Source: a virus. Taken from it: a DNA stretch of 64,000 nucleotides. Where the stretch lies: positions 84,739 to 148,738 of the IMG/VR virus record IMGVR_UViG_3300030202_003189, one strand, 5' to 3'. The position numbers and the translations under genes were made by a program. The notes under the pieces are model-generated. The model had not been told where the DNA came from. It saw nothing but the letters and a program-made list of their open reading frames with translations, and did no database searches. Of the stretch, positions 2,768 to 46,888 are shown piece after piece (the stretch's first letter is position 1; every line of letters starts with the position of its first letter).

Positions 2768-3869
2768 TTATACAAGTTATTATCGTTTTTAATTCATTTT
2801 CAGTAAGGTGTGGAGATACAGGTATATGTAAAACCTCCTTACATCTTTTTTCGCATTCAGGTAGCGATTGGTCCCCAAAAATCTTTTGGTATATCGGTTG
2901 TTTGTGTAATGGAATTGGCCAATAAACAAAGGTTTCAACACCGACATCTGACAGACTTTTTTGTAGCTCATCTCTACCTTCTACTATCAGAGTATACAGG
3001 TACCAACTATGATTGTCAATAGTATCAGTAGGGTACGGTAATGTAACTCTAGGATTTTTAATATTATCAAAGTAATATTGTGCGTTTTTTTGTCTTCTTT
3101 TTAACCACTCATCCGAGGCACCATTTAATAATACAGTGAGGAATCTAGCTTGTAATGCATCCAACCTTAAATTACCCCCTATAGTCTCATGGTAGTATCT
3201 TTTCTTAGAACCATGGGCTCTAATCATTTTTATTTTATTATAGGTTTCTTCGCTATTAGTTATCACAATACCACCATCCCCCAAACAACCTAATGTTTTA
3301 GCAGGAAAAAAACTAAAAGATGATGCTAGTGAATGTGTTCCTGAGTGACCTCCTTCAGGATAATAAGAACCGAAAGATTCTGCGGCATCTTCAAATAAGA
3401 AAGCTCCTCTGGATTTACAAAAATTATTAAGTTCCTTAATTGATTTGGTTTCGCCGAAAAGATGAACAAACATTACCGCTTTAGTGTTTTCAGTCCAAGC
3501 CTCCTTAAATTCTTTTACTGATGGATGAAAGGAACCGGGCTCATTATCTACAAATATAGGATTTAATCCTGCAACTAATATTGCTTCAGAACTTGCAATA
3601 AAAGTATATGAGGGTACCAATACGTCAGAACCTTTAGGTAAGTCCAAGGACATTAAGATGGCTAACAATCCATCTGTACCACTCGAAACCCCTACCGCAT
3701 ATTTGGCTCCTGTATATTCGGCAAACTCCTGCTCAAATCTACTAACTGAGGGACCATTCACGTAAATCCCGTCAGATAATGACTTATCTAACTCCCCCAT
3801 TAAATAATCTTTATAGGGTGCCAGCAACTTAGGATAGTCAAAAAATCTAATAGTTTCTTTTGTTTGCAT
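2751..3869 (-). CDS. wbpE: PLP-dependent sugar aminotransferase (DegT/DnrJ/EryC1), WbpE-like
   Basis: A 372-residue family member of normal length. Visible motifs are VSSGTDGL (cofactor phosphate site), EDAAESFG with Asp161 facing the pyridine nitrogen, and SFFPAKTLG, in which Lys191 is the predicted Schiff-base lysine. The family transfers the amino group of glutamate to keto sugars. Placed between WbpB-like and WbpG-like genes, it most probably makes UDP-GlcNAc(3NH2)A from the 3-keto intermediate. It overlaps the upstream amidotransferase gene by 23 bases and the downstream WbpB-like gene by 17. Substrate assignment is by context; the aminotransferase class is certain. Confidence 0.92.
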   Translation of the reverse strand: MQTKETIRFFDYPKLLAPYKDYLMGELDKSLSDGIYVNGPSVSRFEQEFAEYTGAKYAVGVSSGTDGLLAILMSLDLPKGSDVLVPSYTFIASSEAILVAGLNPIFVDNEPGSFHPSVKEFKEAWTENTKAVMFVHLFGETKSIKELNNFCKSRGAFLFEDAAESFGSYYPEGGHSGTHSLASSFSFFPAKTLGCLGDGGIVITNSEETYNKIKMIRAHGSKKRYYHETIGGNLRLDALQARFLTVLLNGASDEWLKRRQKNAQYYFDNIKNPRVTLPYPTDTIDNHSWYLYTLIVEGRDELQKSLSDVGVETFVYWPIPLHKQPIYQKIFGDQSLPECEKRCKEVLHIPVSPHLTENELKTIITCINGFKK

Positions 3870-33915: not shown

Positions 33916-36732
33916 ATGGCAAATCAAGTAGTAGTATCACCAGGAGTATATACATCAGAAAAAGATCTTTCTTTTGTCGCATCCAGTGTAGGGATAACAA
34001 GATTAGGGGTATCAGCAGAGACACTAAAAGGACCGGCTAACCAACCTATTTTCGTACAAGACTATGACACATACCAAACTTATTTTGGTGGACAAGACCC
34101 ATCTGTATGGACAGTAGGGAGTACTTTAATACCTAAGTATGAAGGAACATATATCGCTAGATCTTATCTAAGTGAATCAAATAATCTTTGGATGACAAGA
34201 ACTCTAGGTCTTAGTGGATATGACGCAACCGAGGCTTTAGTTATAAATGTAGGTGAGGGTAATATGGACGCAACTCAAGCGACACAACAAACAAATACTG
34301 CTGGAGGTATCCAATCGGATAAAAGATTTTCAGCTATGACAGCCTGTGTTATTAGAGTAAGAAAAAAACAAGGTGTTACATTTACTCAACCAAATTTTGC
34401 TGTACAAATATTAAGAGTAGGGACAGCACCAGGAATGATAGAGGTTGCGGATGGACAATGGGTACCTAATGGAATTAATGGAGGAAGTTCAGCTACAGGT
34501 ATTGCGAGTACTACTAATATACAACCACCAGCTAACGCACAAAATGCAGTTTGGAGTACAGCTGCGGATGACTTCGTTATACAAACTATGAGGTTAGGTG
34601 GTGTAATAAGAGATACTTATGTTGTTAGTTTCAACCCAAACAGTAATAACTACATAACAAAAGTTCTAGGAACTAATCCATACTATGACTCTACAAATAA
34701 TAGTGAGGCTAGAATATATGTTGAACAATTCTACCCTAAAGCGATACAACAGTTAGGTAAAGAATGGGGTGGTACAGCAGGAAACAGTTATCTTGATGGT
34801 TTACCACACATGACTTGGTATAACGTACCTTCAGGATGGAGTAATTATACTGACACTTGGCAACCAATTGCAACAACAGACGGACCAACTACTCCATGGA
34901 TTTATTCTGAAGTTAGAGGTCTTGACGTAGAAAAATTATTTAGACTTATTTCTATCGGTGATGGTAATGCCGCAAATAAAAACATTAAAACATCTTTCCT
35001 TAATTTAGATATTGATAATAAAACTTTTGATATTGCAATTAGATCATATGACGATACCGACGCTAAACAATCAGTATTAGAGAGTTTCAAGAATTGTAGT
35101 ATGAACCCAGTTAGTCAAAATTATATTGGTAAAAAAATTGGTACATTAAACGGAGAATATGCTTTAAGATCAAGATATGTAATGGTTGAAATTGATGACA
35201 ACGCACCAATAGATGCGTTACCATCAGGATATAAAGGATACCCAACTACAGATGGACCTAATATGAGTGGGGTTACTAATTTCCAAGGGTCTACTTTTAG
35301 TACGTTTGAAGATGCACTTCATTCACGTATCCAACCAGATGTGTATTATAATTTAAGTTATGATACAGTTAATGACAATGTTAGAAAAACTTATCTAGGT
35401 CTTTCTGATAAGATGGGATATGACCAAAACTTATTTAATTACATGGGGTGTGCTACTGTTAGAGGTACTACTTGTGCTACAGCTTGGACAGGACACACAT
35501 ACGGTTTCCACTTAGATACAAGAGTTTCTGGGTCAACTTTCTTAGGTGATACAAATTTATCAGATGGAAAACAATGGTTCTCAGGTTCAGTTGGGACATT
35601 CCCATTTTATGTTAATTCCGTTGACTATGTTAACGATCCATACTATGGACCTGGATCAGAGGCACTAGCGGCTAATTCAAAAAACGCATATTACCAGAAG
35701 AAATATAGAAAATTTACCGTGGCATTTTATGGTGGTTTTGATGGTTGGGATGTGAGTAGAGCTAGTAGAACAAATACAGATAGTTGGAGAGAGAATCAAG
35801 CGGCGGGATATAATTTAGGGTACGGTAGTGGTACTACAGGACCATATCTTGGAGCTTATACTTTTAATAAGAACACTGACTGGTATGCTTATTATAACGC
35901 AATACAAAAGTTTGCTAATCCAGAAGAGGTTGATATAAATCTTTTTGCAACACCTGGTATCGACTACACTAATAATTTAACATTAGTTAATGATACTATT
36001 GAGATGGTTGAAGATGATAGAGCTGATTCACTATATATCCTTACTTCAGAGAATTATAAGGACCAAACAGTGGATAATGCGGTAGACGCTTTAGAAGACT
36101 CAAGTATCTCTAGTAATTATGTTGCGACTTACTGGCCATGGATACAATTTAACGATGTTGAAAACAACGTAAGGATATACATTCCACCAACTAATGAAGT
36201 TTTAAGAAATATGGCGATTACAGATAATGTATCCTTCCCATGGTTCGCAACTGCTGGTTACAATAGAGGAATAATAAAAGCTAATAAGGTAAGAATAAAT
36301 CTAACACAAGATAATAGAGACGACCTATATGAAGCTAGACTAAACCCAATTGCGACATTTACAGCGACTGGACCGGTTATTTGGGGTAATAAAACATTAC
36401 AAACAGCAATGTCGGCACTTGATAGGATTAATGTTAGAAGATTACTTCTTAGAGCTAGAAAATTAGTTTCAGCAGTGGCGGTTAGACTAGTATTTGAACA
36501 AAATGATGAAATAGTAAGACAAGAATTCTTAAGTTTAGTAAATCCAATTCTAGAAGATATTAGAAGAGATAGAGGATTAACAGACTTTAAGGTTGTTCTT
36601 TCTAATGACCCAGAAGAAATTGATCAAAACAAGTTGACAGGTAAGATTTATATTAAACCAACTAGATCTTTAGAGTTTATCGAAATAGAATTTAATATCA
36701 CACCAACAGCAACAAGTTTTGACGATATATAA
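33916..36732 (+). CDS. 18: Tail sheath protein, gp18-like (first copy)
   Basis: A 938-residue sheath subunit, longer than T4 gp18 (659). The N-terminus VSPGVYTSEKDLSFVASSVGITRLGVSAETLKGPANQP is the standard entry of myophage sheaths. The C-terminal part (DRINVRRLLLRARK, LVNPILEDIRRDRGLTDFKVVL, KIYIKPTRSLEFIEIEFNIT) forms the conserved sheath core that binds the tube and neighbouring subunits. The long middle is the variable outer part. Contraction of the sheath drives the tube through the cell wall. A TATTTATT lies about 42 bases before the ATG. A second, related sheath gene follows 21 bases downstream. Confidence 0.93.
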   Translation: MANQVVVSPGVYTSEKDLSFVASSVGITRLGVSAETLKGPANQPIFVQDYDTYQTYFGGQDPSVWTVGSTLIPKYEGTYIARSYLSESNNLWMTRTLGLSGYDATEALVINVGEGNMDATQATQQTNTAGGIQSDKRFSAMTACVIRVRKKQGVTFTQPNFAVQILRVGTAPGMIEVADGQWVPNGINGGSSATGIASTTNIQPPANAQNAVWSTAADDFVIQTMRLGGVIRDTYVVSFNPNSNNYITKVLGTNPYYDSTNNSEARIYVEQFYPKAIQQLGKEWGGTAGNSYLDGLPHMTWYNVPSGWSNYTDTWQPIATTDGPTTPWIYSEVRGLDVEKLFRLISIGDGNAANKNIKTSFLNLDIDNKTFDIAIRSYDDTDAKQSVLESFKNCSMNPVSQNYIGKKIGTLNGEYALRSRYVMVEIDDNAPIDALPSGYKGYPTTDGPNMSGVTNFQGSTFSTFEDALHSRIQPDVYYNLSYDTVNDNVRKTYLGLSDKMGYDQNLFNYMGCATVRGTTCATAWTGHTYGFHLDTRVSGSTFLGDTNLSDGKQWFSGSVGTFPFYVNSVDYVNDPYYGPGSEALAANSKNAYYQKKYRKFTVAFYGGFDGWDVSRASRTNTDSWRENQAAGYNLGYGSGTTGPYLGAYTFNKNTDWYAYYNAIQKFANPEEVDINLFATPGIDYTNNLTLVNDTIEMVEDDRADSLYILTSENYKDQTVDNAVDALEDSSISSNYVATYWPWIQFNDVENNVRIYIPPTNEVLRNMAITDNVSFPWFATAGYNRGIIKANKVRINLTQDNRDDLYEARLNPIATFTATGPVIWGNKTLQTAMSALDRINVRRLLLRARKLVSAVAVRLVFEQNDEIVRQEFLSLVNPILEDIRRDRGLTDFKVVLSNDPEEIDQNKLTGKIYIKPTRSLEFIEIEFNITPTATSFDDI

Positions 36733-36753: not shown

Positions 36754-39700
36754 ATGGCAGATCAGTCACCATTATCACCAGGAGTTTATGTATCAGAAAG
36801 AGAACTAAGCTTTAACGCACCAAGTATTGGTGCAACAACGTTGGCCACAGTTGGAGAAACCCTTAAGGGTCCAGCGCAACAACCAATATTCATTGAAGAT
36901 TATAACGAATATAAAACATATTTTGGTGGGTTAGATACTACGGTTTTTTCTGGTAGTACTAGATTAAAATACGGACAACAATATATTGCTAAGAATTGGT
37001 TGGCGGAATCAAACTCTATGTGGGCCGTACGTTCATTAGGATACTCTGGATATGATGCGGGAACCGCTTGGAATATTTCATTAAACTACGTACCAACCAC
37101 AAATAATGTGTTTAGATCATTTGGTGGGGGTGGTACTGACGGACACTATAACGGACTAACCCAAAGAGAATTAGGAGGAACAGGTATACCATATATGGCA
37201 CCAGACGGTACAATAAGTGCAATGACACTATATAAACCAACTCAATACTCTTTCCCAAACAATGCGGGAGCCACATCAGTACAGCCAGGTATGTATAGTG
37301 GAGGTACATGGGGATATAACGCAGATGCTGACGGAGGTTCGGCTATAAATGGTACACAATATACTAATGCAGGTGGAGGGGCCAACTTTGGTGCAAACTA
37401 CCAATCAGCAATAGAGTTAGCTGTAATATTTTCTGCTACTACATATGGAGGGGCTGGTAAATTAGTCGTAACAGGTAGTACAGGTGGGAATTCTTTTGCG
37501 GGACCATCATCAGAGGCAGCAGGACTTCCTTGGGTTTCAGAATTAACAACAACATCTTATCCTCTTTGTTTATTAAGTGCAACAACACTAGTAATAACTA
37601 CGAACTCTTCAGTAGGGGGTGCTGATCCAACAGCATTTACCGCAGGAGGTTCTGAAGGATTTGAGAGTCCTAGAATAACAACAGGAAGTAACGCAACTAC
37701 TTTCCCAACTATTCAGTGGAAACCAGCAATTTCAGTACATGATAATGGAGTTAACGCGTCTAATGTATCACCAGCAAATATAATACACGCTGGAATGGGG
37801 TCAAGAGATGTCAATCCATTAGGTTATCCTGTAACAGGACACACTTTCCAACTAAATTGGAGGTACGGTAATTATATAGGTGCACATAGTGGAGGGACAA
37901 CTGGATGGACAGCACAAACAACAGGGACCGTGTATACATGGTCGGCGGCAACTCAAGAAATGGTGGTCGGAACTCTAAGAAGTAGAGCAAAATATGCGGG
38001 TAATACTTATAGTACAAACACTGCGTATAATGGAGGTGCTTGGGGAGTCACAGACTACCAATCTCCATCTTTTGGTAATAAGAGTGAATGTGATGGAACA
38101 GTTACTACGTGTCCTGAAAAACCATTTAGGACCATCAATACAACAAACTATAAAGAAGATTTTTATATATCTGGGTATACTAATGGTGCTTCTGTAAATT
38201 CACAATTCCTTTATAAGGTAAGTTTAGACCCTAACTCTCAGTGTTATATCACAAAAGTATTGGGTACAAAAAAACATAATAATTCTCGTCATTTATGGGT
38301 TGAAGACATTTATCCTAACACATTACTTAATTTAGCTTCTTCTGCTGTAACATTCTCAAACATTAATCTAAATAAGGCAGACACATATAGAAATTATACA
38401 GAAACATGGCAACCATTAGGCGCTTTAGAAGGGCCAACAACTCCGTGGATTGTGTCTGAACTAATGGGTAGTACTCTACATAAGTTATTTAGAGTTATTT
38501 TAATACCAGATGGTAACGATGCAAATGAGTTGGTTAAAATATCTATACAAGATGTCGATGTCTTTACTAAAACTTTTACTCTTACTGTTAGAGAATTTAA
38601 CGATAGCGATGCGTCCCAAAGAATATTAGAAGGATATACTAACTGTAGTATGAACCCAACAAGTCAAAACTACATTGGGAAGAAAATAGGAACGGAGAAT
38701 GGGGAATACCCTGTTAGGTCACGATATATTATGTTGGAAATTGATGAAAACGCACCCATAAACGCTCTTCCAAGCGGATTCCAAGGAATCGTCGTTAGAA
38801 GCTATAGTGGGTCAACTCATAGTAATGAAGTTTATCAAGACCCACCTGCACAAACAGAAATTGCAAATGATAGTGGATGGTATGGTAATGAATCACCAAA
38901 ACCATTTTATAATTTAACTTATAATACAACATCTGACGATATTAAGAAAACTTACTTAGGGTGGTCCACTAAAAAAGGTATTGACCAAAATTATTTTAAC
39001 TATAGAGGTCTTGAAACTCTAACAACTACGGCACCATATAAATGTGGTGCTAATGGAACATTATGGACTGGAAGAACTAAAGGATTCCACTTTGATAAAA
39101 GAGTATCCGGATTAACAACAAGTGACGTACTTCAGTATGAGGTAGGGGCTTATAGTTTTTACACTAGTGGTAGTACAGGAACATTAGTAGGTGATAGTGG
39201 AAATTATTATCAAAATAAAGATTATTTGAAATTTACAGTTATTCCTTATGGTGGTTTTGATGGTTGGGATGAATATAGGATAACAAGAACAAATGCTGAC
39301 ACATATATAATAGGAGGGACAGACTACGGCACATTCTGGTATAATCAGAGTTTTACAACATCCACTTGTCAAGTAACTGATTATTATGCTTACTATGATG
39401 CCATGAGGAAACTAGCCAATCCAGAGGCGACACCAAGTAGCGTATTTACAACACCAGGTATAGATTATACAAATAATTTAACATTGGTTAATCGAGCAAA
39501 AGAAATGATAGAAAATGATAAAGGAGACTCGATTTATATTGTAACTTCAGATAACCCAAGAAATCAAACAGTAGATGAAGCTGTAGATAATTTAGAAAAC
39601 GCAGCATTAAATAGTAGTTATATGGCTACGTATTGGCCTTGGGTAAGGTATAACGATACTGAAAATAACGTAAGAATATATATTCCACCTACAGCTAATG

Positions 39701-40236
39701 TTGTTAGAAATTTAGCATTAACTGATAATGTATCATTCCCGTGGTTCGCAACAGCTGGTTATAATAGAGGTAAACTGGATGTTGATAGGGCACAAACAAA
39801 ACTAACTCAGATTAACAGAGACGACCTTTATGAGGCAAGAATAAACCCAATAGCCACATTTAATGGTGCGGGGGTTATTATATGGGGAAATAAAACTTTA
39901 CAAACAACACAATCAGCTTTAGATAGAATTAATGTAAGACGACTTATGTTAGACCTTAAAACTAAAGTTAAAGATATAGGGTTACAATTATTATTTGAAC
40001 AGAACGACGCTATTGTAAGACAACAATTCTTATCTTTAATTAATCCAGTTCTAGAAGAAGTAAGGGCAAATAGAGGATTAACAGATTTCAGGGTAGAACT
40101 AAATTCAGATGTTAACGAACTAGACACCAACTCTATGACAGGTAAAATATTTGTTAAACCAACTAGAACACTTGAATTTATAGAAGTTGAGTTTAACATA
40201 ACACCATCGAGTACATCATTCACTGACTTAACATAA
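36754..40236 (+). CDS. Second tail sheath protein, gp18-like paralog with enlarged middle
   Basis: A 1160-residue paralog of the preceding gene. The two share VYVSERELSF, ETLKGPAQQPIFIEDY, YIGKKIG, DENAPINALPSG, the FTTPGIDYTNNLTLVN stretch, NNVRIYIPP, TDNVSFPWFATAGYNRG and the closing VKPTRTLEFIEVEFNIT. The N- and C-terminal core regions are very similar. The middle (about residues 110-480) contains an extra glycine- and threonine-rich part not found in copy one, probably an additional surface domain. Both could be in one mixed sheath, or one could be a ring at the tail end. The second copy is the longest of the pair. Confidence 0.9.
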   Translation: MADQSPLSPGVYVSERELSFNAPSIGATTLATVGETLKGPAQQPIFIEDYNEYKTYFGGLDTTVFSGSTRLKYGQQYIAKNWLAESNSMWAVRSLGYSGYDAGTAWNISLNYVPTTNNVFRSFGGGGTDGHYNGLTQRELGGTGIPYMAPDGTISAMTLYKPTQYSFPNNAGATSVQPGMYSGGTWGYNADADGGSAINGTQYTNAGGGANFGANYQSAIELAVIFSATTYGGAGKLVVTGSTGGNSFAGPSSEAAGLPWVSELTTTSYPLCLLSATTLVITTNSSVGGADPTAFTAGGSEGFESPRITTGSNATTFPTIQWKPAISVHDNGVNASNVSPANIIHAGMGSRDVNPLGYPVTGHTFQLNWRYGNYIGAHSGGTTGWTAQTTGTVYTWSAATQEMVVGTLRSRAKYAGNTYSTNTAYNGGAWGVTDYQSPSFGNKSECDGTVTTCPEKPFRTINTTNYKEDFYISGYTNGASVNSQFLYKVSLDPNSQCYITKVLGTKKHNNSRHLWVEDIYPNTLLNLASSAVTFSNINLNKADTYRNYTETWQPLGALEGPTTPWIVSELMGSTLHKLFRVILIPDGNDANELVKISIQDVDVFTKTFTLTVREFNDSDASQRILEGYTNCSMNPTSQNYIGKKIGTENGEYPVRSRYIMLEIDENAPINALPSGFQGIVVRSYSGSTHSNEVYQDPPAQTEIANDSGWYGNESPKPFYNLTYNTTSDDIKKTYLGWSTKKGIDQNYFNYRGLETLTTTAPYKCGANGTLWTGRTKGFHFDKRVSGLTTSDVLQYEVGAYSFYTSGSTGTLVGDSGNYYQNKDYLKFTVIPYGGFDGWDEYRITRTNADTYIIGGTDYGTFWYNQSFTTSTCQVTDYYAYYDAMRKLANPEATPSSVFTTPGIDYTNNLTLVNRAKEMIENDKGDSIYIVTSDNPRNQTVDEAVDNLENAALNSSYMATYWPWVRYNDTENNVRIYIPPTANVVRNLALTDNVSFPWFATAGYNRGKLDVDRAQTKLTQINRDDLYEARINPIATFNGAGVIIWGNKTLQTTQSALDRINVRRLMLDLKTKVKDIGLQLLFEQNDAIVRQQFLSLINPVLEEVRANRGLTDFRVELNSDVNELDTNSMTGKIFVKPTRTLEFIEVEFNITPSSTSFTDLT

Positions 40237-41092: not shown

Positions 41093-41581
41093 ATGGCAGA
41101 CTTACTAATGAAAATGCCGGTTCCTTACGAACCAAAAAGAAAGAATCGGTTTATAATGAAATTTCCTTCTGACTTAGGAATAGCAGAATGGATAGTATCT
41201 AGTGCGGCTAGACCATCAATAACAATTAACGAAGTTGAGATTCCATTTCTTAACACTAAAACTTTCGTAGCTGGACAATTCCAATGGGAAACAATTGATG
41301 TTACCTTTAGAGATCCTATCGCACCTTCTTCATCACAAGCGTTGATGGAATGGGTTAGATTACACGCAGAATCAGTAACAGGTAGAATGGGATATGCGGC
41401 AGGATACAAAAAGAAAGTAGATTTATTCATGTTAGACCCAACAGGTGCTATCGTGGAAAATTGGGAATTAAGAGGAACTTTCTTAACTAATGTTAATTTT
41501 GGTGATTTAGATTATAGTGGTGATGATTTGGCAGATGTTTCTGCAACACTACGTTTTGATAGAGCAATCTTAAAGTACTAA
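41093..41581 (+). CDS. 19: Tail tube protein, gp19-like
   Basis: A 162-residue protein, nearly the same length as T4 gp19 (163). It shows the tube-fold sequence pattern: RKNRFIMKFP, SSAARPSITINEVEIPFLN, FQWETIDVTFRDPIAPSSSQALMEWVRLHAE, KKVDLFMLDPTGAIVENWELRGTF and the ending ADVSATLRFDRAIL. These form the inner barrel of hexameric rings around the DNA channel. It follows the two sheath genes and the HAD gene, and is flanked by short intergenic regions, with a promoter candidate before and a hairpin after. Very likely one of the most abundant tail proteins. Confidence 0.93.
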   Translation: MADLLMKMPVPYEPKRKNRFIMKFPSDLGIAEWIVSSAARPSITINEVEIPFLNTKTFVAGQFQWETIDVTFRDPIAPSSSQALMEWVRLHAESVTGRMGYAAGYKKKVDLFMLDPTGAIVENWELRGTFLTNVNFGDLDYSGDDLADVSATLRFDRAILKY

Positions 41582-41608: not shown

Positions 41609-41630
41609 TAAGGGCCTATTTAGGTCCTTA
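41609..41630 (+). terminator. Hairpin after the tube gene
   Basis: The arms around AAGGGCCTA (41610-41618) and TAGGTCCTT (41621-41629) can pair over 8-9 bases with one G-T pair. Only AATTG follows and there is no T run, so it is either a weak terminator or an mRNA-stabilising hairpin behind a highly expressed gene. Confidence 0.4.
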
Positions 41631-41693: not shown

Positions 41694-42452
41694 ATGTCAG
41701 AAAACAAAAATGAATTTGTCGTACCATTCGACGTTATTGAACTTCCTTCAAAAGGGTTATTATACCAAAATTGTGGTGGGTCAATAAAAATCGAGTATAT
41801 GACTGCTGAGGATGAAAACATTCTAACCTCACCCAACCTAGTACAATCAGGCAAGGTTCTTGATGTATTAATGGAACGTAAAATCAAAGAAGAAGGACTC
41901 AACGCTAAAGACCTTTTACTTGGTGATAGAAACGCAATTATGGTGTTTTTAAGGTCCACTGCTTATGGTGAGATGTATCCAGTTAAATTAACCGACCCTT
42001 CAACAGGAGAAGAATTTGAAACTGAAATCGATCTATCCAAATTAGAAGTAAAACAAATTGGTGCGTCTCCTGATGAAAACGGACTATTCTCCTTCGACTT
42101 ACCAAAAACTAAAAAGACGATAAAATTTAGATTACTAACTGCACGAGATGAAGAAGACTTGGTTAAATCAGAAGAGAAAAGAAAGAAATTACTACAGAAT
42201 AAAGTCTCACAACTCCTAACATCAAGATTAGCCCTACAAATTATGGACGTAGACGGCAATAAGGACAAAAGTTATATACAACAATTTGTTCAGTATTTAC
42301 CAGCATTCGATTCTTTAGAATTAAGAAAATATATGGAAGAAATCGAGCCGGGTATAGATCTGAGGGCAGACGTGGAGTCTCCTTCAGGTGCCAGCTTTCG
42401 CGCTCTCGTTCCAATTACAGTCAGATTTTTTTGGCCTAACATCGAGTTATAA
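41694..42452 (+). CDS. 26: Baseplate/tail assembly chaperone-like protein, gp26-like
   Basis: A 252-residue protein of the T4 base plate family (gp26 group). Features are FDVIELPSKGLLYQ, the characteristic start with a PSKGxxY motif, IEYMTAEDENILTSP, LDVLMERKIKEE and LLTARDEEDLVKSEE. It lies between the tube and the tape measure, the place where tail assembly chaperones of other phages stand. The frame ends in VRFFWPNIEL. The run TTTTTTT at 42426-42432 near its 3' end could let a part of the ribosomes move into the overlapping frame at 42388-42633. The ATG has an A-rich leader. Confidence 0.8.
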   Translation: MSENKNEFVVPFDVIELPSKGLLYQNCGGSIKIEYMTAEDENILTSPNLVQSGKVLDVLMERKIKEEGLNAKDLLLGDRNAIMVFLRSTAYGEMYPVKLTDPSTGEEFETEIDLSKLEVKQIGASPDENGLFSFDLPKTKKTIKFRLLTARDEEDLVKSEEKRKKLLQNKVSQLLTSRLALQIMDVDGNKDKSYIQQFVQYLPAFDSLELRKYMEEIEPGIDLRADVESPSGASFRALVPITVRFFWPNIEL

Positions 42453-42633
42453 ACCGGAGTTATTTAAGGAGATATATATCTTAGTTCATCATTGTGGATT
42501 TTCACGAGCAGATATAATGAAGATGCCAATATATGAAAGAAGGGTTTATCTGGGTGAATTAACCAAGGAATTGGAAGAAAAACAGAAACAACAAAAAGCC
42601 GCTGAACGAAAGGCAAAATCAAAGAGGGGATAG
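42388..42633 (+). CDS. Overlapping small frame, probable frameshift extension of the gp26-like protein
   Basis: An 81-residue frame in the +1 register relative to the gp26-like gene, overlapping it by 65 bases. Its first 15 residues after the ATG lie over the conserved gp26 coding frame and look meaningless. The part after 42433 (LTSSYKPELFKEIYILVHHCGFSRADIMKMPIYERRVYLGEL, in two or three pieces) looks like a real helical protein, ending in a lysine-rich coil. Either it is made from an internal ATG at 42388, or it is joined to the gp26-like protein by a +1 or -2 slip on the T run. T4 gp51-type proteins downstream of gp26 are a possible counterpart. Confidence 0.6.
   Translation: MPAFALSFQLQSDFFGLTSSYKPELFKEIYILVHHCGFSRADIMKMPIYERRVYLGELTKELEEKQKQQKAAERKAKSKRG
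42426..42432 (+). other. Candidate slippery site (seven T)
   Basis: Seven T bases read as TTT TTT TGG in the gp26-like frame. A +1 or a -2 shift would both lead to GGC at 42433 in the downstream frame. The gp26-like stop follows at 42450-42452. Confidence 0.5.
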
Positions 42634-42647
42634 TCCCTCTTTTTTTT
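42623..42647 (+). terminator. Rho-independent terminator
   Basis: AGAGGG (42623-42628) pairs with CCCTCT (42635-42640) around a six-base loop and is followed by seven T. It overlaps the end of the small frame's coding region. It would close the unit of tube and chaperone genes. Confidence 0.75.
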
Positions 42648-42679
42648 ATATTAGATATTTATTGTTAAACACATACCTT

Positions 42680-44278
42680 TTGAAAACAGAAGAAAGAAGA
42701 CATATACGTATAAAAGAACTAATGGGTATCGAAAAACCTCTATTAGAACAAGCACCTACCGCTGATTTATTTGGTACAAAACCAAGTAGTAAAGTGGCGG
42801 ACCAAGGATTGCAAGATTTAGTTGGGGCAGAAGCCGCAGTTGCTGCAGGAAGAGAGTTAATGGGTACAACCCCAATTTCACAGGGATATATAAATAGAGT
42901 TGTATTAAAATACCTAGATGGGACGGGACCATTCGGACTAACTTATTCATTCTCAAAAGATATAGTTGAGGGAAATACTGTTTATAAATCTAGTGACATT
43001 TTTTCTACAAAAAATGCTGAATATTTTGGTGTTACTTCAGTTGGTAATGCTATTATAGTTGACGCTCCAACATCAGAAGAAATCGAAACAGACGATAAAG
43101 AGGAGGAAATAGAGAAAAAAGAAGAAGATAATAGAAATAAAAGATTAACACAGATATTCAAAAAAATAGGTATAAATTTTGACCATAAAGATCCATTTAT
43201 TGTATATTTTAGAAAAGGTATCCGACCAATACTAAGAAGATTAAAGACAGAATTTCCTGAATATAACATAGAATTTCTTGACCAAGCAACAAATGTTGGA
43301 GTAGAAGATGTTATTGTTGATGGTTTCCTAACAACTAAATCTATATTATTTGAAGAGTATAAAGACTCTATGAGACACCTAATGGATTTACATAAGGGTA
43401 AAAAAGAATATAGTAAGGATAAAAAGATGGTAGGTATCCTAGATGGTGAAATTGAAAAAGAAAAAAAGAAACTTCTTAAAATAGTTAAACCACGATTTAA
43501 GAAAGTATTTAAGAAATATTTTACTTCATTAGACGACGATAAATTATTAAGACTAGGTATGTACCTATCAACCTTTTTATCAGGACTTAAAAAAGATTAT
43601 CCACAATATAATATAAATTATGGACAAATGAGAGTAACCGAGCAGGAAGAAAAGGAAGTTACTCCAGAAAAATTATCCATAATCTTAGAACAAAATGTAA
43701 CAGAAGTATGGATAGGTAGAAGATACCCTTGTAAGGTTAAGGTAGGTGAGGGTAAGGAAGCAAATAATACGATAAAGATATTAGATGTGGACTCCGAATA
43801 TGTATTCAAAGGAGGTACAACTTCTAAAAAAGGACCCGGGGGAGGAGGAGAAGGTAATAAGTGTCCAGAAGGAAAAGTATGGAACGAAAAAACTAAAAAA
43901 TGTGAAGAAAAACAGGGTTCATATACTTTCCCAAGTGGGTTAACTAATAGACAAGATAAAGGAAAAAAATTCTGGGTAACAATGGAGATAACTACTTCTC
44001 CAGCTAACTACCTAAAACAAGGATTTGAAACAGACGTACTACAACCCCATAACTCATTTGTGTATGTTGTAGAAATGTTATTTAATGGTTTTGAGTTTGA
44101 AAGAATAAACAGTAGTGCATTCCCAAACCAAAACTTTGAAGGTAAACAAATTAGATTTATTTTTGAAGATGACGTTGACGAAGTAGATTTTGGAAAAGAA
44201 TACCAAATTGAAGTTAAAAAAGAGAACGAATCCCTTGGGTACTTAAATATAATAGTTACAGATATAGTTAAAAGATAG
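42680..44278 (+). CDS. Large unrecognised tail-region protein
   Basis: About 532 residues. The N-terminal region KTEERRHIRIKELMGIEKPLLEQA resembles the short amphipathic helices seen at the ends of other proteins here. The centre is highly charged (IKKEEDNRNKRL-like stretches and many lysines). A glycine-rich linker is followed by NKCPEGKVWNEKTKKCEEK, a small two-cysteine module. Several beta strands (FWVTMEITTSP, FVYVVEMLFNGFEFERI) finish the protein. It is located between the chaperone and the tape measure. The frame is open from a TTG at 42662, but TATTTATT overlaps that point. The TTG at 42680 is more likely, and the ATG at 42722 is a third choice. Confidence 0.6.
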   Translation: MKTEERRHIRIKELMGIEKPLLEQAPTADLFGTKPSSKVADQGLQDLVGAEAAVAAGRELMGTTPISQGYINRVVLKYLDGTGPFGLTYSFSKDIVEGNTVYKSSDIFSTKNAEYFGVTSVGNAIIVDAPTSEEIETDDKEEEIEKKEEDNRNKRLTQIFKKIGINFDHKDPFIVYFRKGIRPILRRLKTEFPEYNIEFLDQATNVGVEDVIVDGFLTTKSILFEEYKDSMRHLMDLHKGKKEYSKDKKMVGILDGEIEKEKKKLLKIVKPRFKKVFKKYFTSLDDDKLLRLGMYLSTFLSGLKKDYPQYNINYGQMRVTEQEEKEVTPEKLSIILEQNVTEVWIGRRYPCKVKVGEGKEANNTIKILDVDSEYVFKGGTTSKKGPGGGGEGNKCPEGKVWNEKTKKCEEKQGSYTFPSGLTNRQDKGKKFWVTMEITTSPANYLKQGFETDVLQPHNSFVYVVEMLFNGFEFERINSSAFPNQNFEGKQIRFIFEDDVDEVDFGKEYQIEVKKENESLGYLNIIVTDIVKR

Positions 44279-44284
44279 TAAATC

Positions 44285-46888
44285 ATGGCAGAAGGATCAT
44301 CAACTTCAGACAGAATTAAAGAACTACAACAGGAGAGGGCATTACTCCAGTGGATGATTGATAACCAAAAAAGGGTTAACAACGGCATTTCCAGTTACCT
44401 TAAGGCTAGAAGAGAAATTCTAGTAATTGACCAACAAATAGCAGAAGCTGCTAAACAATTAGCAAAATCCCAAAAAATTATTGACGATTTAGAAAAGGAG
44501 AATAAGGATAGAATGGGAAGGGTCAAGAAATATTATGATGAAAAAATAAAACAACAAAAGAAGTTTCACGCTGGTGTTCAAAAAACTTTAGATGATTTAG
44601 ATGAGGAACAAAAGAAGTTAAAGGGAACGTTAAATATAATGAAGGCGATAACAAAATCGCTTACCGACCAACTTAAAAAGTTTACAGAACAACACTTCTC
44701 ACTTAAACAACTTAAGAAAGTATATCTGGAGTACGATAAAGCAGTTAGAATGACTCAAGTTAGTATGGGAGCAACTGCGGGAGCTGCTGATATGATTAGG
44801 AGAAATTTAGGGGAAGCAGCATATGAAGGAGCTAGATATGGGATATCGGTTGCGGAAATGGCCGCAAATCAAAGAGATATTAGTGAAAGTATAGGTAGAC
44901 AATTAATTATGACTTCGGAACAGTTATCTAAGTTTGGTGTTATGAATAAATTAGTTCCGGGGGTAGCCAATGAATTGGCTTCTTTATTTGATGTATTTGG
45001 TAAGAGTCTAGAATATACGGGAGATATGATGCAGAGAATACTTACCACATCTGTAGAAACAGGATTAAACTTCACTAGATTAACTAAAGAAAATGCTAAA
45101 AATGCGAAACTTGCAACAAGATTCAGGTTCAAAGGAGGACTTAGAGACATTGAAGGTATTAGTAAACAAATGGTAAGACTAAGAACTAACTTTGAATCTA
45201 TCGCTGGTTTTGCGGAAAAAGTGTTTAGACCCGAAGGGGCAATTGAGGCGGCGGCACAACTACAAGTTTTAGGGGGCGCTATGGCTAATCTTGGTGATCC
45301 TTTTATGTTAATGTATAAAGCACGTAACGATGTTGCTGGGTTCACAGAGGAAGTTCTTAAGGCAACTAAATTCACAGGAATGTGGGATAAGAAGACACAG
45401 GAATTTACATTAACGGCTAATGAGTTAGACCGTTTAAGAGAATTGGCAAAAATTACAGGTCAATCTATGGAGGAGTTAGCGGTACAAGCACGACAACAAA
45501 TTAGATTTGATGCTATTGGAGGGGAGATAGCAGCAAACTTTACCGGTAAGGACAAAGAGTTGATTGAGAATTTGGCAGTTATGAAAGATGGTAAGTTCAA
45601 AATGAATGTTAGTACAGAAATTGGTGGGGAAGAATTTGTAGAGATTGGTAAGGTTACACCAGAACAAATAAAACTACTTACAGATCACCGACAAACACTA
45701 GAAGACCAAGCAAGGATGGCACTTACATTCCAAGAAAAGTTTGATGCGTTTATAAATCAACTACAAACTCTTTTAATCCCATCAATGGACAAGATTGCCG
45801 CATGGTTAGATAAATGGGCAATAAAAATAGATATGTGGAGTGATAAAACAAAAGAAAATCTTGCATACTTTTTAGTCGGGGCGGCGGCACTTTTTAGTGT
45901 AACTGCCATGTTTGGAATGGGGATATCCCTAGGACTTGGATTTAGGGCCAGTTCAGGAATAGGAGGACTTGCAGCTGGTGGTGGGTATCAAGGAGGAATG
46001 GCGTCAAAGTTAGCGGGAAAAAAAGGTGGTATGTATGCAGCAAAAGGAAGTATGATGAAAATGTTGGGGGCTGCGGCTGTGATAACAGCGGTTGGTGCGG
46101 CAATTCTAATGGTTGGTCATGGTATGAAGGCCGCGTCAGAAGGATTCTCAACATTAGCCAACGCAATGGCCAGTCTTCCAGTTACTCATTTAGAAACCTT
46201 CGAATCAATAGTAACTAAACTAGGTACTGGTGTTGTAATTATGGCGGTGGGTCTTGGAATATTGGCGGCTGTATTAATCGGTATGGGAGCAACATCAGCA
46301 GCAATGGGGATGGCGGCAGTAGTTCTATTGGCAGTTGGTGCTGCTGTTTTAATGATTGGAGGGGCGGTTTGGTTAGCAGCAAATGGTATGGCGTCATTAG
46401 TAGATTCGATGTCGAATTTGATGAAAAATCCAGGTGTAGGTGATGAGATGTTAAAGATGGGAGCGGGGTTAGTAGCAATGGCTGGTGGACTAACTCTAAT
46501 GGCAAATCCATTAGCGATGTTAGGAATGGGGGAGGCGTGGTGGTTCTTATCTAAAGTTTCTAAATACGGCCCTGGTATCCAGGCTGCTGGAGAAGGGGTT
46601 AAATACTTAAACGAAAACCTAGGAGGACTAAAGTCCTCAATTAAAAACTTTGATGCGGATGGAGGTATGTTTGAGAAGTTGGCACAAATTGATAAAATGA
46701 TAACCAGAACACAATCAAAACCAATCATTGTTGAAGTAAAAGGTGATTTAGGGGGTAGGTTAACTGTAGACGTTCTTGGTGCTGAAACTGAAAGAAAGAT
46801 ATTACTGTCAGATGGTAGATTCATAACTAACTTAACAAATGAGATTGAAGATAGAATAGATATAAAACAAAAGATTAGTGGTAAATAA
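44285..46888 (+). CDS. Tape measure protein
   Basis: An 867-residue protein. The first 150 residues are a long coiled coil (KELQQERALLQWMIDNQ through KTLDDLDEEQKKLKG). Next comes a helical region with AAYEGARYGISVAEMAAN. After residue 528 there are strongly hydrophobic glycine- and alanine-rich helices (FLVGAAALFSVTAMFGMGI, AAVITAVGAAILMVGHGM, MAVGLGILAAVLIGMGA, VVLLAVGAAVLMIGGAVW). This architecture is typical of tape measures, which set tail length and are thought to leave with the DNA. It lies after the chaperone genes and before the baseplate genes, as expected. The T4 tape measure gp29 is 590 residues, so this tail should be longer. Confidence 0.85.
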   Translation: MAEGSSTSDRIKELQQERALLQWMIDNQKRVNNGISSYLKARREILVIDQQIAEAAKQLAKSQKIIDDLEKENKDRMGRVKKYYDEKIKQQKKFHAGVQKTLDDLDEEQKKLKGTLNIMKAITKSLTDQLKKFTEQHFSLKQLKKVYLEYDKAVRMTQVSMGATAGAADMIRRNLGEAAYEGARYGISVAEMAANQRDISESIGRQLIMTSEQLSKFGVMNKLVPGVANELASLFDVFGKSLEYTGDMMQRILTTSVETGLNFTRLTKENAKNAKLATRFRFKGGLRDIEGISKQMVRLRTNFESIAGFAEKVFRPEGAIEAAAQLQVLGGAMANLGDPFMLMYKARNDVAGFTEEVLKATKFTGMWDKKTQEFTLTANELDRLRELAKITGQSMEELAVQARQQIRFDAIGGEIAANFTGKDKELIENLAVMKDGKFKMNVSTEIGGEEFVEIGKVTPEQIKLLTDHRQTLEDQARMALTFQEKFDAFINQLQTLLIPSMDKIAAWLDKWAIKIDMWSDKTKENLAYFLVGAAALFSVTAMFGMGISLGLGFRASSGIGGLAAGGGYQGGMASKLAGKKGGMYAAKGSMMKMLGAAAVITAVGAAILMVGHGMKAASEGFSTLANAMASLPVTHLETFESIVTKLGTGVVIMAVGLGILAAVLIGMGATSAAMGMAAVVLLAVGAAVLMIGGAVWLAANGMASLVDSMSNLMKNPGVGDEMLKMGAGLVAMAGGLTLMANPLAMLGMGEAWWFLSKVSKYGPGIQAAGEGVKYLNENLGGLKSSIKNFDADGGMFEKLAQIDKMITRTQSKPIIVEVKGDLGGRLTVDVLGAETERKILLSDGRFITNLTNEIEDRIDIKQKISGK

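Follow-up and report, generated by a model that had tools for sequence, protein, structure and literature searches.

The window analysed here is a 64,000-nucleotide stretch of a 231-kb viral record. On its forward strand, a tail tube protein gene (41093-41581; phrog_4542 tail tube, E 3e-28) is followed by a gp26-like gene (41694-42452; 252 aa), the end of which is overlapped by a small open reading frame (42388-42633, GTG start to stop; 81 aa) whose GTG is unlikely to be used. The preliminary description had the two frames overlapping by 65 bases in a +1 or -2 phase, and the coordinates bear this out: the frames share 65 nt (42388-42452), and their offset of 694 (42388 minus 41694) leaves a remainder of 1 on division by three, which is the +1 (equivalently -2) phase. 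Within the overlap lies a putative slippery site, TTTTTTT (42426-42432), read as TTT TTT TGG in the 0 frame and as TTT TTT GGC in the +1 frame. Around it, the first frame runs AGA TTT TTT TGG CCT AAC ATC GAG TTA TAA and the second GAT TTT TTT GGC CTA ACA. Reading through with one base skipped gives a predicted frameshift fusion of 312 aa (41694-42633) with the junction ...ITVRFF/GLTSSYK..., in which the +1 frame contributes a helical C-terminal domain (42424-42630) resembling DUF6760 and the gp51 C-terminus. By analogy with the G/GT system, the gp26-like protein would be the short tail-assembly chaperone (TAC-N, gpG role), the C-terminal domain would take the gpT role (TAC-C), and the fusion would be the long chaperone (TAC-NC, gpGT role).

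Terminator-like hairpins flank the chaperone pair on both sides, one between the tube gene and the gp26-like gene (41609-41630, forward strand) and the other, followed by a T run, right where the small frame ends (42621-42642, forward strand). Across the region, seven terminator-like sites were found against 1.0 expected from shuffles. The pair had been described as lying between tube and tape measure genes. The tube side of that placement is supported by the phrog_4542 profile, whereas the candidate tape measure gene (44285-46888, forward strand; 867 aa) is assigned by position and length and had no family match in profile searches. It lies after a 538-aa open reading frame (42662-44278) that has a doubtful TTG start and likewise no family match. 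In annotated relatives, the tape measure gene lies 3' of the chaperone pair. Further upstream, two adjoining large tail-sheath-like genes (33916-36732, 938 aa; 36754-40236, 1160 aa) are alike at both ends, which suggests a duplicated sheath gene.

The gp26-like protein matches PF12322 (E 1.7e-11, 44.6 bits against a cut-off of 24.5) and phrog_150, a baseplate hub family (E 2e-13). The two halves of the predicted fusion, short form and C-terminal domain, were folded separately in AlphaFold, each as a plain translation. The short-form model (pLDDT 91, from 79 sequences) retrieved gp26-type viral proteins in Foldseek; no solved structure reached significance, with the HK97 chaperone 2ob9 at E 4.3 and a probability of 0.11. 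The gp26-like gene is the sole PF12322 gene in the 231-kb record, and no separate gp51 gene was found elsewhere in it. Both T4 gp26 and T4 gp51 span PF12322 over its full length, and T4 gp51 is a gp26-like protein carrying an extra C-terminal end; the short form would therefore correspond to gp26 and the long form to gp51.

Searches with the C-terminal portion are consistent with this correspondence. Both the whole small frame (E 1.5e-7) and the domain 42424-42630 by itself (E 1.3e-7) match phrog_634, a gp51-type family annotated as 'baseplate hub assembly catalyst', and so does T4 gp51. In hhalign comparisons, the domain aligned with the gp51 that lies in the -1 phase in Kyanoviridae (probability 97, E 8e-11), and cyanophage gp51 in turn aligned with the T4 gp51 C-terminus (probability 90, E 2e-6) in an alignment that starts at the junction. 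The direct profile match between the window domain and T4 gp51 alone is weak, so that the link runs via the cyanophages. Taken together, these profile comparisons indicate homology between the domain and the T4 gp51 C-terminus, with cyanophage gp51 as the bridge. Its AlphaFold model has a pLDDT of 89, and tblastn of the small frame against phages and plasmids gave no match. The domain also weakly matches PF20546 (DUF6760; E 4e-5, under the curated cut-off), a family of unknown function on which a literature search found nothing; DUF6760 may represent the tail-chaperone C-domain more widely.

Relatives were collected nearly all by similarity to the gp26-like protein, with the small frame disregarded. 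A small-domain profile built from 13 members was then run in the three frames around each gene's end, and loci with a score of at least 15 were taken as scorable. This held for 95 of the 97 genes with a stop, and the domain lay in the +1 phase in 94 of these 95. The 13 sequences used to build the profile are necessarily +1; the 78 scorable loci from a later search carry no such bias, and all 78 were +1. When the 95 genes were grouped at 60% identity, 33 of 34 clusters were +1. The preliminary description had proposed aligning relatives to see whether the T run and overlap are kept, and they largely are: the junction is preserved in 94/95, and the site nearly always consists of TTT TTT with T or C as the next base. 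The one exception is a gp26 relative in a 595-kb uncultured megaphage (L016, LR756511.1, ~3660-3780), in which GGT TTT TTC TTC precedes a domain in the -1 phase; both shift directions thus occur within the family.

The +1 arrangement extends to named phages, namely Microcystis phage Mel-JY01, Flavobacterium phage immuto, Bacillus SP-15, Listeria LIS04, Streptococcus GXN1 and Streptomyces BRock, and in most of these the public annotation lacks the second frame or holds only a fragment of it. Among contigs of bacterial genomes, the +1 domain was found at 9 of 16 further loci, several labelled Flavobacteriales, and no domain was detected at the other seven, which are mainly from gut Bacteroidales. 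The gp26-like genes in contigs from gut Bacteroidales and Gastranaerophilales (L221, L223-L228) mostly lack both the FF.P tail and a detectable second domain. A scan of genome contigs with SP-15 gp26 as query found no relative.

If the small frame were instead a separate gene, it would have to be initiated within gp26 at GTG 42388, or by termination-reinitiation, with no frameshift involved. The GTG is in frame, is preceded some 10 bases earlier by GGAG and recurs in the six closest relatives, and in cyanophages an ATG lies two bases past the gp26 stop. Nonetheless, 33 of the 95 genes, and 12 of the 33 +1 clusters, have no ATG, GTG or TTG in the small frame before the gp26 end, so that no start codon there could yield the complete conserved domain. 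The GTG itself is missing from L010, L011, L026 and L029. The first residues of the small frame had been called nonsense-like, with sensible protein beginning right after the seven T; the alignments broadly agree, as the +1-frame protein conserved in relatives begins at the FF encoded by the T run (FFGLTSSYKPELFKEIY...) and the residues 5' of it, MPAFALSFQLQS, are not conserved as protein. Constraint is maximal at the T run and not at the GTG, and a separate start would leave the codon selection for TTT, CGN and GGG described below unexplained. Relatives with a separate small gene and a leader of its own were sought and not found in the +1 group. We regard separate initiation as a quite improbable account of the locus, if a conceivable one for this single genome in view of its in-frame GTG.

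Codon usage at the junction points to constraint beyond the encoded protein. In 90 of 90 genes the second Phe is encoded by TTT, a codon that accounts for 76.5% of Phe elsewhere in these genes (p 1.8e-10, a value inflated by relatedness; on cluster representatives, p 0.002 at 60% identity and 0.04 at 50%). A pyrimidine, T or C, follows TTT TTT in 32 of 33 clusters, and the A-site codon is TGG, CGN or TAC and not a stop codon. Where Arg follows the site, its codon is CGN in nine cases and AGR in none, as against 101:215 elsewhere (p 5e-5). Among the 11 nearest sequences, synonymous codon identity at conserved residues is 0.93 from the slip site to the gp26 end, compared with 0.56 in the gene body. 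These patterns indicate that the slippery site is selected at the nucleotide level.

A second bias lies upstream, where a Gly codon, mostly four codons ahead of the P-site codon, is GGG in 58 of 75 cases compared with ~7% elsewhere (p 1e-43; p 3e-8 on cluster representatives). Under the frameshift model this strip is noncoding in the second frame, and the bias would most simply act as a ribosomal signal, for instance through base pairing to 16S rRNA. In relatives of the CGN and TAC classes (e.g. L077, near 3200), GGG stands four codons before the slip at 77% versus 7%, and some CGN-class sites read GGGGTGGAG TTT TTT C, resembling the prfB signal. Many CGN-class relatives carry a Shine-Dalgarno (SD)-like element (median percentile 0.03). 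The window clade carries neither the GGG nor an SD-like element (percentile 0.5-0.7), and no fold beating shuffles was found around its site.

We consider it about 90% probable that this one gene produces a short and a long tail chaperone by a ribosomal +1 slip at TTT TTT TGG. Most ribosomes would translate 41694-42452 and stop, releasing the 252-aa gp26-like short form. In some, the tRNA-Phe occupying the P site at the second TTT would slip one base forward while the next codon waits, and re-pair with the overlapping TTT (TTC in relatives); continuation in the +1 frame would give the 312-aa long form with its extra helical C-terminal domain. If the analogy with lambda gpG/gpGT holds, the short form would serve as a coat for the tape-measure protein, and the domain added in the long form would recruit the tube protein. 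We infer the slipping of the ribosome rather than RNA polymerase, the +1 rather than -2 direction, the ratio of short to long form and the chaperone function.

The direction of the slip is best judged from natural variants of the site. A +1 or -2 slip at the T run had been proposed as the source of the fusion, and comparison of relatives supports such a slip with a preference for +1; a -1 slip there would run into a stop after two more codons. A -2 slip would reach the identical final frame with the product ...VRFFF/GL, and the seven T bases of the window permit it. Such shifting is also found in phage Mu. A natural precedent exists for antizyme in yeast (PMC10885494). The variants TTC TTT TGG (L058), TTC TTT CGC (L054), CTG TTT CGC (L020) and TTT CTT TGG (L014) would, however, demand mismatched re-pairing after a -2 slip, while all of them allow good +1 re-pairing on TTT or TTC; and the T or C that follows TTT in 32/33 clusters is required by a +1 slip and not by a -2 slip. 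The -2 route is accordingly unlikely, if somewhat less so than separate initiation. The slip on CTT-T is of the release factor 2 (prfB) type. For +1 slippage at prfB, UUU ranks after CUU among the P-site codons most prone to slip (PMC10885494).

The same short-T variants bear on slippage by RNA polymerase, which would generate mixed mRNAs encoding both forms. Fusions are known to arise by transcriptional slippage (PMC5009743), and the window clade has a seven-base homopolymer, but the +1 relationship is kept with just three or four T in L014, L020, L054 and L058, and we dropped this explanation as very improbable. Homopolymers are also prone to assembly and sequencing error, so that the locus might truly be one continuous gene. 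Against this, the same phase recurs in 94/95 genes from independent assemblies and isolates, with the gp26 stops kept a few codons downstream; the independent isolates SP-15, immuto, Mel-JY01, LIS04 and BRock refute such an error, and its likelihood is negligible.

The preliminary description likened the pair to gpG/gpGT, and the comparative evidence supports that likeness, with the fusion adding a gp51-type C-terminal domain; from sequence, a gpG role as short tail chaperone is supported for the gp26-like protein, and a gpGT role as the long one for the fusion. As in lambda G/GT, one start would serve a short and a long form, with an overlapping downstream frame adding a C-terminal domain, but lambda uses a -1 shift and the window pair a predicted +1 shift at TTT TTT T. 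No sequence relation between the two systems was detected, and the fold similarity to HK97 gp13 was not significant. With T4 gp26/gp51 the pair shares the PF12322 family and a long form ending in a gp51-type domain; in T4 and Campylobacter CP220, however, the short and long forms are two separate paralogous genes, in place of the one gene with a frameshift in the window. A 2016 review (PMC5009743) treats T4 as the exception to G/GT frameshifting, a point taken up in later literature. Such an arrangement was said to be out of the ordinary for T4-like phages, a claim that is not supported: short and long chaperones of T4-like phages, with poly-T -1 signals in some, are already published, according to two papers (PMC10885494, PMC12846349) that cite Vladimirov et al. 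2022. As those papers relate it, the view of T4 gp26/gp51 as a chaperone pair, which we reached here from sequence, is likewise already in print.

Another parallel is the gp26/gp51 overlap of Kyanoviridae and phiW-14, in which homologous proteins meet at the same FF junction over a poly-T site and the second frame opens at the gp26 stop. There, the phase is -1 at a canonical heptamer with the gp26 stop about two codons past the site, in contrast to the +1 phase of the window. P-SSM2, S-PM2, pelagiphage HTVC008M and phiW-14 each have a single gp26 gene and a -1-phase domain, with T TTT TTC or T TTT TTT at the junction; further contigs near P-SSM2 have T TTT TTC in 80 of 80 cases although 85% of their other Phe codons are TTT. 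Kyanoviridae and phiW-14 probably reach the junction by a -1 frameshift at T TTT TTC; with an ATG just past the gp26 stop, separate initiation is possible in cyanophages. In Vi01 the domain is in the -1 phase with no clear slippery site. In L113, L114, L116-L118 and L133-L212 (P-SSM2, S-PM2, HTVC008M, Vi01, phiW-14 and marine contigs), gp51 abuts gp26 or overlaps it in the -1 phase, and public records list gp51 as a separate short gene.

Frameshifts in other tail genes, with +1 precedents among them, are known from SPP1 (gp17.5/17.5* and gp17.1*) and the haloarchaeal HSTV-2 (PMC6316719, PMC5009743). In SPP1, 17.5* arises by a -1 shift at UUUUUUC and gp17.1* is a tube protein made at CCC UAA; neither has a known sequence relation to the window pair. 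The proposed mechanism also resembles that of prfB, in which the P-site tRNA slips forward to an overlapping pyrimidine codon, and part of the relatives carry SD-like bases 5' of the site. By contrast, prfB has a stop codon in the A site and, 3 nt ahead of the slippery codon, an SD-like sequence, both of which the window clade lacks, and autoregulation of the prfB kind is not expected for the window pair.

The literature searched, in which Vladimirov et al. 2022 is represented by the papers citing it, yielded no description of a conserved +1 form. What looks new is this form, together with the selected upstream GGG of many relatives outside the window clade. The same junction appears to be reached by a -1 shift in cyanophages, by a +1 shift in the window group and by gene duplication in T4, which suggests that the direction of the shift was switched and the product kept. 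We think it rather likely that these sites form a large undescribed +1 family in T4-related chaperone genes, built on TTT TTT Y with Trp, Arg (CGN) or Tyr next and often with a GGG acting on the ribosome, whose direction was switched in evolution while its product was retained.

From the comparisons made here, a programmed +1 frameshift in the tail chaperone gene of this large T4-related virus is very probably real. Forward frameshifts in bacterial viruses have rarely been described, and no general rule for them exists. With its conservation across hundreds of relatives and its natural variants, the site offers a comparative dataset for forward ribosome slipping and allows three routes to the same two chaperone forms (-1, +1 and two genes) to be compared. 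It would also correct annotations that miss or truncate the second half of the long chaperone, as in SP-15, LIS04, immuto and GXN1.
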